Positions 6,698 to 8,806 of a DNA stretch of 64,000 bases are shown in pieces. The notes below the pieces were generated by a model. That model saw nothing but the letters and a program-made list of their open reading frames with translations, was not told where the DNA came from and did not search any database. The DNA is taken from NCBI GenBank assembly GCA_022828145.1, contig JAJEJA010000043.1:1-64000 (forward strand), written 5' to 3'. This stretch comes from Candidatus Poribacteria bacterium (GTDB lineage Bacteria > Poribacteria > WGA-4E > WGA-3G). Numbering within the stretch: position 1 is the first letter of the stretch; each line of letters starts with the position of its first letter. A program made the position numbers and the translations under genes.

Positions 6698-7771
6698 TTA
6701 TTTTTTCTCTGCTTCTAACTGCTCTTTTTGCCATCCATAGTCAACATTACCATCATAAAACTTATCTGGATGTTCTACTGCCCAGATCTGCTTGTGGATG
6801 AGCCAATTCTTTGGGTCTAATTCTAATGCTTTCCGCCATTCTATTATTGCTTCCTGTTTTTTCCCTATTTTCAATAAGGTTAGCCCGAGTTGAAAGCGTG
6901 CATTCGCTTCGATGACTTTCGGGTTTTCCGATTTTTTCAAGGGTGTGATGTCCCTCAGTAGGCGCGTGTTATAGGTAGGATCCGATAACCACGTTTCCAG
7001 CATTTTAATTGTCTCTTTTTTAGCGACATTTATATTGAAGGGGTGTTTGACTAATCTGCCTGCTTCGTCTATCATGATGCCGTAGGGTATTGCTTTGAGA
7101 TTGTAAGTATTACCCGAAATGTTCTGTGAATCAATGAGTGTCGTGAATTCGGCATTGGCTTTGTCGTGCCACGGTTTTACCACAGATGCCCCTTGTGCAT
7201 CTATTGCGATGGAGATAATGTTCAGTTTATCACGATGTTTTGCATAAAACTCCTGCCATCCTGACAGTTGCTCACGGCATCCTCACCAGGAACCCCATAT
7301 ATAGAGGAGTGTTTTCTTTCCGCGAAAACTTTTCAGGGGTCTGGGGTTGTCTTCAAGGTCAGGAAGGGTAAAATTCGGTGCAAGTTGCTCTCGATGGATA
7401 ACTTCTAGCTGTGTTTCCGATGACTTGTATATTTCATAGCCGAATGGTTGCGTGATGCTTTCAATTTTAGCATAATTGACGTTGTTGATGCTAAAGACAT
7501 CTTCACCGAAGTTGATTGGAACACATAACTCCGCTTCTCCACCTCCACAGATTACTGCCATTTCTGTGCTGTCGGGGTATTCAACCTTTAATTCTAACTG
7601 TTTGCAAAAGGGTTCTATTGGGACTAACCAAACACCATCTTTTGATATGGGTGCTGGTGAAAAGGTTGTAGGTTGGTTATTTATTAGAATTTGTATTTTG
7701 TCGGTTTGTGCTGCTTGTAGTCCTACTGCGAAAGACATCATAAGGCAAGCGGTGAATATTAGTTTTATCAT
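6698..7771 (-). CDS. Thioredoxin-like (redoxin) protein with in-frame TGA, probable selenoprotein
   Basis: Read through the TGA at 7283-7285, this is a 357-residue exported protein. It has a signal peptide (ACLMMSFAVGLQAA), a copper-amine-oxidase-N-like stalk domain (about residues 27-115, with GVWLVPIEPF), a redoxin domain (about 130-285) and a C-terminal TPR-like helix pair (IIEWRKALELDPKNWLIHKQ). The TGA falls exactly where the active-site Cys follows Trp: LLYIWGSW-TGA-GCREQLSGWQEFY. The frame continues without any other defect, and a bacterial SECIS-like hairpin follows. Selenocysteine insertion is therefore more likely than decay. The motif is U-x-C rather than the usual C-x-x-C. Its ATG overlaps the stop of a membrane cytochrome c gene by four bases, so the two act together, perhaps in periplasmic redox. 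No selA, selB or tRNA-Sec gene is in the window to confirm the machinery. Confidence 0.72.
7248..7269 (-). promoter_or_regulatory. SECIS-like stem-loop downstream of the in-frame TGA
   Basis: On the minus-strand mRNA, AAC-UGUC pairs with GGCA-GUU, with a three-base bulge (GGA) on the 3' side, closing a five-base loop AGGAU. The loop starts 20 nt after the UGA, has G as its second base, and so fits the published bacterial SECIS rules (16-37 nt distance, small loop, G among its first two bases). The stem is short and includes one G-U pair, so folding alone is not proof. Confidence 0.5.
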
Positions 7772-8136
7772 TGTGTGTTTCTCTCCCGATGTTGTGAGTC
7801 GTATATAAGGAATTTTGTTATTTGCTCAGCAGTTTTAGGTGTGAGTCCTGATCCTGCTTTTCGCATCATTTTTTGAACATATTTTTTCCATTCTTCTGGT
7901 GTAAAGTCAGAATTGATGGGTCTTGCGACAGTATGGCATTTACTGCATCTTCGTGTGAAGATGTTGTAAAGCGTTTGCATCTCCTGTGGGTAGTTAGAGA
8001 CATCAATTTCGTTAGGTCCCTGATCTGCTGCATACGTTTTAGCAGGAGATCGGGTGACACGCATAGCGAAGAACATTGCTATGCCTACTAAAAGGATGAC
8101 GCATATTACTGAGATCCATATAATTGTTTGTTGCAA
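7768..8136 (-). CDS. Membrane-anchored monohaem cytochrome c
   Basis: The 122-residue protein starts with one transmembrane helix (IIWISVICVILLVGIAMFFA), which works as an uncleaved anchor. A periplasmic domain follows with a single haem c motif CSKCH and a possible distal Met ligand in YVQKMMRKAG. It resembles small diheme-like c-type domains found in Planctomycetes and Poribacteria. The start is TTG at 8136, with GAGG 11 bases upstream. The last four bases overlap the ATG of the downstream redoxin gene, so the two are translationally coupled, suggesting electron transfer between the cytochrome and the predicted selenothiol protein. Confidence 0.85.
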   Translation of the reverse strand: MQQTIIWISVICVILLVGIAMFFAMRVTRSPAKTYAADQGPNEIDVSNYPQEMQTLYNIFTRRCSKCHTVARPINSDFTPEEWKKYVQKMMRKAGSGLTPKTAEQITKFLIYDSQHRERNTQ

Positions 8137-8162: not shown

Positions 8163-8540
8163 CTACAGAATTAGCAAGTGTGTATCTATCTTCACATCAC
8201 CGTTTTCCACTACATCTATAGTTATGCGACTTCCAAGAAGTAGAAACATACCAGAAATGGCATTACCATCTGTTTTCAATGCAGATACGCTGCGTTGTTC
8301 TTCATGCCATTTTACTTTTACAAGAAACTTTTCCATTGCAGCTGTAGTTCCATCTGCAAGAATCACTTCTTGGTCATCAACTTTTGGAAGTCTGAGACGG
8401 TTTATTAGATCACTCGGCAGAGCTAAATAGCCAGAGAATCCTGTATCAACAATACACTCTATTGTTTCACTATGACTTGAACCAATGATTTCTAATTCAA
8501 TGATTGTTTCAAGGTTAGCAGTAACTTTTCCAGTAATCAT
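8163..8540 (-). CDS. Retroviral-type (clan AA) aspartic protease
   Basis: The 125-residue protein has the single catalytic motif VDTGFSGYLALP (Asp-Thr-Gly) near residue 32 and the second conserved hydrophobic-Gly segment GMFLLLGSRITIDV near residue 97, as in soluble clan AA proteases that act as homodimers. No signal peptide is present, so it should be cytoplasmic. Its ATG overlaps the stop of the preceding 89-residue gene by four bases. Such two-gene cassettes are frequent in cyanobacteria and behave like toxin-antitoxin modules in their distribution, but no activity is established. Family call is firm, role is unknown. Confidence 0.85.
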   Translation of the reverse strand: MITGKVTANLETIIELEIIGSSHSETIECIVDTGFSGYLALPSDLINRLRLPKVDDQEVILADGTTAAMEKFLVKVKWHEEQRSVSALKTDGNAISGMFLLLGSRITIDVVENGDVKIDTHLLIL

Positions 8541-8806
8541 TTAGTCGGAGACGTAATTTTAAAACCCATACGATGTGCCGCTTGAAATCCGATGCGTAAA
8601 CTATAGATGACAGCATCGGGACGTTTAGCAAGTATTTGCATGGATGGGGATAAATCGTCGGTACCTATTTCGTAATCCCCTGTTTCAATATCAACAGATA
8701 AGAATTTACCGTTGTGAACTGGTTCAACTTTGTCCTGAATCTGCTTCTGATAGATCTCTTTACCCCGAGCAACAACATCTTCGGGTTTATAATGGACGCG
8801 TGCCAT
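8537..8806 (-). CDS. Small partner protein of the clan AA protease
   Basis: An 89-residue protein with the pattern GKEIYQKQIQDKVEPVHNGK, SVDIETGDYEIG and a central region ending RPDAVIYSLRIGFQAAHRMG. I recognise the same pattern in cyanobacterial small proteins that always precede an aspartic protease gene. AAGGA is eight bases upstream of the ATG at 8806. It overlaps the protease start by four bases. Function is unknown; an antitoxin or substrate-like role for the protease is only a guess. Confidence 0.8.
   Translation of the reverse strand: MARVHYKPEDVVARGKEIYQKQIQDKVEPVHNGKFLSVDIETGDYEIGTDDLSPSMQILAKRPDAVIYSLRIGFQAAHRMGFKITSPTK

Follow-up and report, generated by a model that had tools for sequence, protein, structure and literature searches.

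A poribacterial thioredoxin-like gene with an in-frame TGA at its active site, and its probable decoding as a U-x-C selenoprotein

Is a gene with a stop codon at its expected active-site cysteine a broken gene, or does it encode a selenoprotein? The question is raised by a minus-strand frame (7771–6698) in 64,000 nucleotides of a Candidatus Poribacteria bacterium (GenBank assembly GCA_022828145.1, contig JAJEJA010000043.1, positions 1 to 64,000; this whole stretch is called the window below). A first-pass annotation, made from the sequence by itself, had described the frame as intact on both sides of one TGA, and this was borne out: the single in-frame stop is the TGA at 7285–7283 (codon 163), the frame is otherwise open, and readthrough gives 357 residues that include WGSWUGCREQ. 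The standard code (Table 11) splits the frame into two open reading frames (ORFs; 7283–7771 and 6698–7183), reading what would be one selenoprotein gene as a truncated protein and a fragment. These two ORFs speak for the alternative that the TGA is an ordinary stop, dividing a pseudogene or two genes, or a sequencing error. From comparative sequence data we conclude that 6698–7771 is very probably (about 0.95) a genuine selenoprotein gene, in which the TGA specifies selenocysteine (Sec, U). The gene and its codon are as follows.

6698..7771, minus strand: candidate selenoprotein gene, 357 aa, with a signal-like N-terminus (judged by eye), a Cu_amine_oxidN1-like N-domain, a ResA/TlpA-like redoxin domain with U-G-C, a C-terminal TPR and a HKQIWAVEHPDKFY tail.
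7283..7285, minus strand: TGA codon 163, predicted to be read as selenocysteine (WGSW-U-GCR); the same codon is present in 47/47 poribacterial orthologues with an active site.

The close relatives of the window gene are from Candidatus Poribacteria metagenome-assembled genomes. Fifty poribacterial loci were read, of which 20 were picked from the match list (mostly TGA-bearing) and the other 30 were top-scoring; 47 proved to be orthologues with the active site, all with TGA at the active-site codon and the common motif W[AG]SWU[AG]CR; of the remaining three, L054 was a fragment from the N-terminus, and L055 and L056 were different proteins. Invariant residues flank the TGA on both sides in the alignment of homologues. 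Within the window's family a homologue with one TGA was present in 50 of 58 genomes (among them G008, where it is split over two frames), the exceptions being G012, with a contig-end fragment only, and seven genomes with none, and across the phylum the gene with TGA was found in 59/84 genomes. In a wider set, the best 80 of 193 relatives from a scan of named genomes, 71 TGA forms stood against 9 Cys forms at the active-site codon, with the U/C-x-C spacing unchanged; 46 of the 71 were poribacterial, many from the same genomes as the 50 loci. The 34 relatives in this set from outside Poribacteria divided into 25 TGA forms (from Chloroflexota, Planctomycetota, Armatimonadota, Verrucomicrobiota, Acidobacteriota, Latescibacterota and KSB1) and the 9 Cys forms. 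Among the TGA forms of this set, residue x of U-x-C was G, A, V, S, T or I; in L146 it was K. A search of 393 genomes of Dehalococcoidia, the class of relative L119, matched 73 of them; at E<=1e-45, 75 of 78 places had the TGA and 3 did not (a count that omits four weaker places, above E 1e-45, all without TGA). Of 20 places examined, 18 carry the TGA, in each case at the active site, and the other two (L153, L158) have Cys there. The Cys homologues that the first-pass annotation had proposed to seek were therefore found (9 of the best 80 of 193 relatives, plus L153 and L158), and its placing of the TGA at the Cys expected after WGSW agrees with the occurrence of Sec or Cys at exactly that codon. 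A viral scan found no relative of the window protein.

An ordinary stop is difficult to reconcile with three findings: the TGA recurs at this codon in numerous assemblies from several phyla, the coding sequence is conserved both before and after it, and distant homologues have Cys in its place. Sequencing error, which the annotation had allowed might undo its proposal, is excluded because the TGA is conserved across many assemblies, and we regard the ordinary-stop or error explanation as already refuted as far as comparative data can do so.

Two further observations were made in these searches. One of the two non-orthologous poribacterial proteins (L055, G083:C52) is a separate thioredoxin-like protein that has an in-frame TGA of its own, at WATWUGSCRVE, and so belongs to the U-x-x-C type. 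Seven genomes of L119's class carry two TGA-bearing relatives ~1.1-1.2 kb apart (G444:C74, G341:C117, G368:C45, G279:C4, G312:C4, G350:C27 and G359:C72), which suggests tandem selenoprotein paralogues.

The genome of the window encodes SelA (525 bits), SelB, SelD and tRNA-Sec, so that all four of selA, selB, selC and selD, which the annotation had named as a check, were found. SelB is a 645-aa ORF with a Pfam match for its C-terminal wing domain, and tRNA-Sec (75.7 bits; anticodon TCA by ARAGORN) adjoins selB. The SelD of this genome (L064:1399-2445 (-), C75) has an in-frame TGA at KCAGU near its N-terminus and is itself likely to be a selenoprotein. In the phylum, tRNA-Sec and SelA were each matched in 72/84 genomes, and one or both in 56 of the 59 that carry the gene; this phylum-wide co-occurrence was set aside as non-discriminating, since most genomes without the gene are among those 72 in each case, and the test was therefore shifted to the named relatives outside Poribacteria. 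Here the 25 TGA-form genomes had tRNA-Sec in 22, SelA in 23 and at least one of them in all 25, whereas the 9 Cys-form genomes had tRNA-Sec in 3, SelA in 3 and at least one in 4 (25/25 versus 4/9, Fisher p 4.5e-4, a value that is indicative only, as the genomes are related and possibly incomplete).

The UGA might instead be read by a near-cognate tRNA (e.g. as Trp) or under an altered genetic code. One internal TGA would be tolerated under such readthrough, and nothing specific favours it; TGA ends 11/37 long ORFs of the window and is therefore not reassigned, UGA alternates with Cys, not Trp, in the best-80 set, and a tRNA-Sec with anticodon TCA is present, all of which makes this explanation highly improbable.

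The signal that would direct Sec insertion lies just downstream of the codon.

7253..7267, minus strand: hairpin of the bacterial selenocysteine insertion sequence (bSECIS) type, CUGUC-AGGAU-GGCAG; loop N1-GG-N-N2 starting 20 nt past the UGA.

The annotation had placed the start of a hairpin with a G-containing loop 20 nt after the TGA; the hairpin stands, but its 5' arm starts already at 15 nt (7267), and it is the apical loop that starts at 20 nt (7262). The bSECIS rule, as worded in the part of a 2026 review that gives it (PMC13188914), has the loop 16–37 nt after the UGA, a G among the loop's first two nucleotides and a stem of at least 4 bp; the hairpin here fits it, with the loop A-GG-A-U, starting at 20 nt, on a stem of 5 bp. 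In a synonymous-codon shuffle, 31/84 distinct TGA forms did better than 95% of the shuffles made from them (median rank 0.075), and as only these fell under 0.05 and the stem is mostly encoded by LPxWQ, the hairpin was rejected as stand-alone evidence. What was retained was the free synonymous positions and the contrast with Cys forms. The stem Leu codon ends in G in 84/84 distinct TGA forms, whereas in the flanks of the same genes 33.5% of Leu codons do so, and the Leu/Gln codon pairs are CTG/CAG in 73, TTG/CAA in 10, TTG/CAG in 1 and CTG/CAA, the combination that would break the pair, in 0, even though 59% of the Gln codons in the flanks are CAA. Over 78 distinct 39-nt sequences, 390/390 cells were paired, 10 with both sides changed versus a mean of 1.5 in shuffles (0 of 500), this two-sided change (covariation) being confined to one synonymous pair of the five. 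All five pairs were kept in 102/102 TGA forms versus 4/11 Cys forms, and 101 of the 102 TGA forms have the loop G. A hairpin in one single gene is weak evidence, and it is the pair statistics over many genes that give it significance; the conservation of codons and pairs, together with the contrast between TGA and Cys forms, points to probable selection on the RNA.

Several points weigh against a selenoprotein gene with a selected hairpin. Three of the 59 carrier genomes of the phylum had no tRNA-Sec and SelA matches (G003, G006 and G034, which are 81, 73 and 96% complete), perhaps through assembly gaps, and part of the machinery also occurs in 4/9 Cys-form genomes. The conserved peptide L-P/S-G-W-Q (in general form L-P/S-x-W-Q) already encodes most of the stem, the peptide itself is altered in 5/7 of the Cys forms that lose a pair, and in one TGA form (L127, 1/102) the G required in the loop under the SECIS rule is missing. 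With the peptide fixed to L-P/S-x-W-Q, all pairs were kept in 102/102 TGA versus 4/6 Cys forms (p 0.0026). Because the sequences are related, neither this nor the other hairpin counts represent independent events, and the p-values serve as a guide only. Selenocysteine insertion, as the annotation had proposed it, is supported by the conserved TGA, the Cys homologues, the Sec machinery and the hairpin statistics taken together.

Conservation and gene content suggest that tRNA-Sec and SelB insert selenocysteine at UGA163, guided by the hairpin whose 5' arm begins 15 nt after it. The rest of the chain indicates what such a protein may do.

7277..7279, minus strand: Cys165, presumed resolving residue of U-x-C; invariant in alignments of 15 and 31 rows.
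7523..7549, minus strand: N-domain Cys pair C75 and C83 (CGGGEAELC); both Cys in 25/25 aligned rows that bear the domain.

Residues 1-22 resemble a signal peptide (judged by eye), and Pfam domains were found at 30–79 (Cu_amine_oxidN1), 129–241 (AhpC-TSA/Redoxin) and 289–322 (TPR). The Pfam match to AhpC-TSA/Redoxin and a ResA-like predicted fold both place the protein with the ResA/TlpA-like thioredoxin fold, the structure comparison being informative mainly for residues 126–269. The C75/C83 pair is kept in Sec and Cys forms alike wherever the N-domain is present, 6/31 rows being without the domain; short chloroflexotal forms have neither the N-domain nor an obvious signal peptide. An exported thiol/selenol–disulfide oxidoreductase with the ResA/TlpA fold is the likeliest product: Sec163 would attack the substrate disulfide and Cys165 would resolve it as a U-x-C selenenylsulfide, as in thioredoxin-fold oxidoreductases. 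The thiol–disulfide oxidoreductase role, which is based on fold and motif, is probable. Woycechowsky and Raines are said to have described, in 2003, CXC motifs as functional disulfide catalysts. The C75/C83 pair would likeliest be an internal relay or a metal site, the relay role being speculative.

Directly upstream lies a candidate partner.

7768..8136, minus strand: small protein resembling a monohaem cytochrome c (haem motif CSKCH), with a hydrophobic stretch near its N-terminus as judged by eye; ATGA overlap with the selenoprotein start.

The stop codon of the cytochrome ORF (8136–7768), a TGA, overlaps the selenoprotein start codon (ATG at 7771), and 13 aligned cytochrome copies show conservation of the haem motif and of the sequence around it. 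A homologue of this CxxCH protein stands directly upstream on the same strand in 41 of the best 80 of 193 loci, all from Poribacteria; in L104 it lies 1.3–1.7 kb upstream. Ten further poribacterial loci divided into 2 with the cytochrome (L045 and L053, from the genomes of L104 and L105) and 8 without it. Against a wider partnership, 38 of the best-80 loci have no cytochrome homologue in the examined flank (which is short in some), and the link is unseen beyond Poribacteria; the cytochrome was accordingly rejected as a general partner. The link between the two genes is real among close Poribacteria and is a lineage-specific arrangement. The coupling to a membrane cytochrome c described in the annotation thus stands as adjacency with an ATGA overlap, while its periplasmic selenium redox couple is a hypothesis.

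In Poribacteria the small membrane cytochrome c may, speculatively, be an electron partner or a maturation client of the selenoprotein. As a redox couple, the mature selenoprotein and cytochrome would exchange electrons in the periplasm, with the haem on one side and U-x-C or the Cys pair of the N-domain on the other; the gene overlap, the adjacency conserved among Poribacteria and the second conserved Cys pair are in keeping with this, the lineage-specific adjacency is not, and we consider it unlikely. A cytochrome c maturation reductase, which like ResA/CcmG would keep the CxxCH cysteines of the apocytochrome c from the overlapping gene reduced for haem attachment, seems no likelier, given the 38 loci without a cytochrome gene in that flank, the distance in L104, and the short chloroflexotal forms. 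Equally doubtful is the fullest version, a clade almost wholly dependent on Sec with two redox centres per exported chain (U-x-C and the Cys pair), wired in Poribacteria to the membrane monohaem cytochrome c as a selenium-to-haem relay. Between a transketolase gene and the cytochrome gene the window also holds two small ORFs (8163-8806), one for a clan AA aspartic protease and the other for an unknown protein of 89 aa, for which no match was found in the loci of some relatives.

A gene seemingly broken by a stop in a sponge-associated bacterium is thus almost certainly an intact redox protein with selenium at its active site, one of a subfamily that nearly always has Sec across Poribacteria, Chloroflexota, Planctomycetota and other phyla, and relatives from several phyla share its unusually tight pairing of selenium and sulfur. 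Such close U-x-C spacing and the C75/C83 pair raise the question of which substrate requires a selenol with such a tight resolving loop, and whether the cytochrome c is the partner.

In the wider tree, Sec is present in 44/46 rows of the window's clade. A first tree had put all 8 remaining Cys forms in a separate clade, a picture that was dropped after 20 rows were added; the sister group in the wider tree then held 14 TGA and 9 Cys forms, and because of these 14, Sec is no peculiarity of the window's clade. The window's clade separates from the one holding L137 with 100/100 support in the first tree and a Shimodaira–Hasegawa-like approximate likelihood ratio test (SH-aLRT) value of 100 in the wider one. 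L137 (Pseudomaricurvus, a Cys form) is of the type of NCBIfam NF041054, WAxxUGC_long (ResA-like WAxxUGC motif-containing), at 529.9 bits; the window protein shares with this family the motif W-A/G-x-x-U/C-x-C, and with L137 the N-domain Cys pair, the redoxin domain and a related tail. The tail differs from that of the family, with HKQIWAVEHP in the window protein where NF041054 has KRQAW. With 141.8 bits the window protein stays under the family cut-off of 300, and nine further proteins of its clade (8 TGA forms and 1 Cys form) range from 134.5 to 181.3; NF041054 is a sister family of the window subfamily.

The active site of ResA is Cys-x-x-Cys. Compared with ResA (1st9) and TlpA/CcmG, the window protein has Sec-x-Cys in place of the classical C-x-x-C, and an N-domain and a TPR domain in addition. 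The tight motif that the annotation had pointed out is present, but it has precedents in print (PMC2398784; PMC13188914) and in NF041054. UGC-containing Prx-like (peroxiredoxin-like) selenoproteins have been in print since 2008, when, in the part of the Global Ocean Sampling (GOS) survey that deals with them, 46 'Prx-like (UGC-containing)' selenoproteins and 855 Cys homologues were listed (PMC2398784), and a section of the 2026 review gives a UGC-containing TlpA disulfide reductase family with MDE0950781.1 as its example (PMC13188914). Both passages describe a Pfam00578-type redoxin domain with U-G-C, as in the window protein, and are confined to domain and motif, the architecture, cytochrome link and subfamily features of the window protein being absent from them. 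Among the Sargasso Sea Prx-like selenoproteins, the section on them has one UxC sequence, like the window protein, most being UxxC (21 sequences; PMC1088965). No publication on WAxxUGC, or on a selenoprotein in Poribacteria, was found in a search that left most subscription papers outside; two papers touching on both selenocysteine and Poribacteria did come up there. U-x-C is therefore not new; the addition made here is a distinct subfamily, in whose clade nearly every row has Sec and whose members usually bear a second conserved Cys pair.
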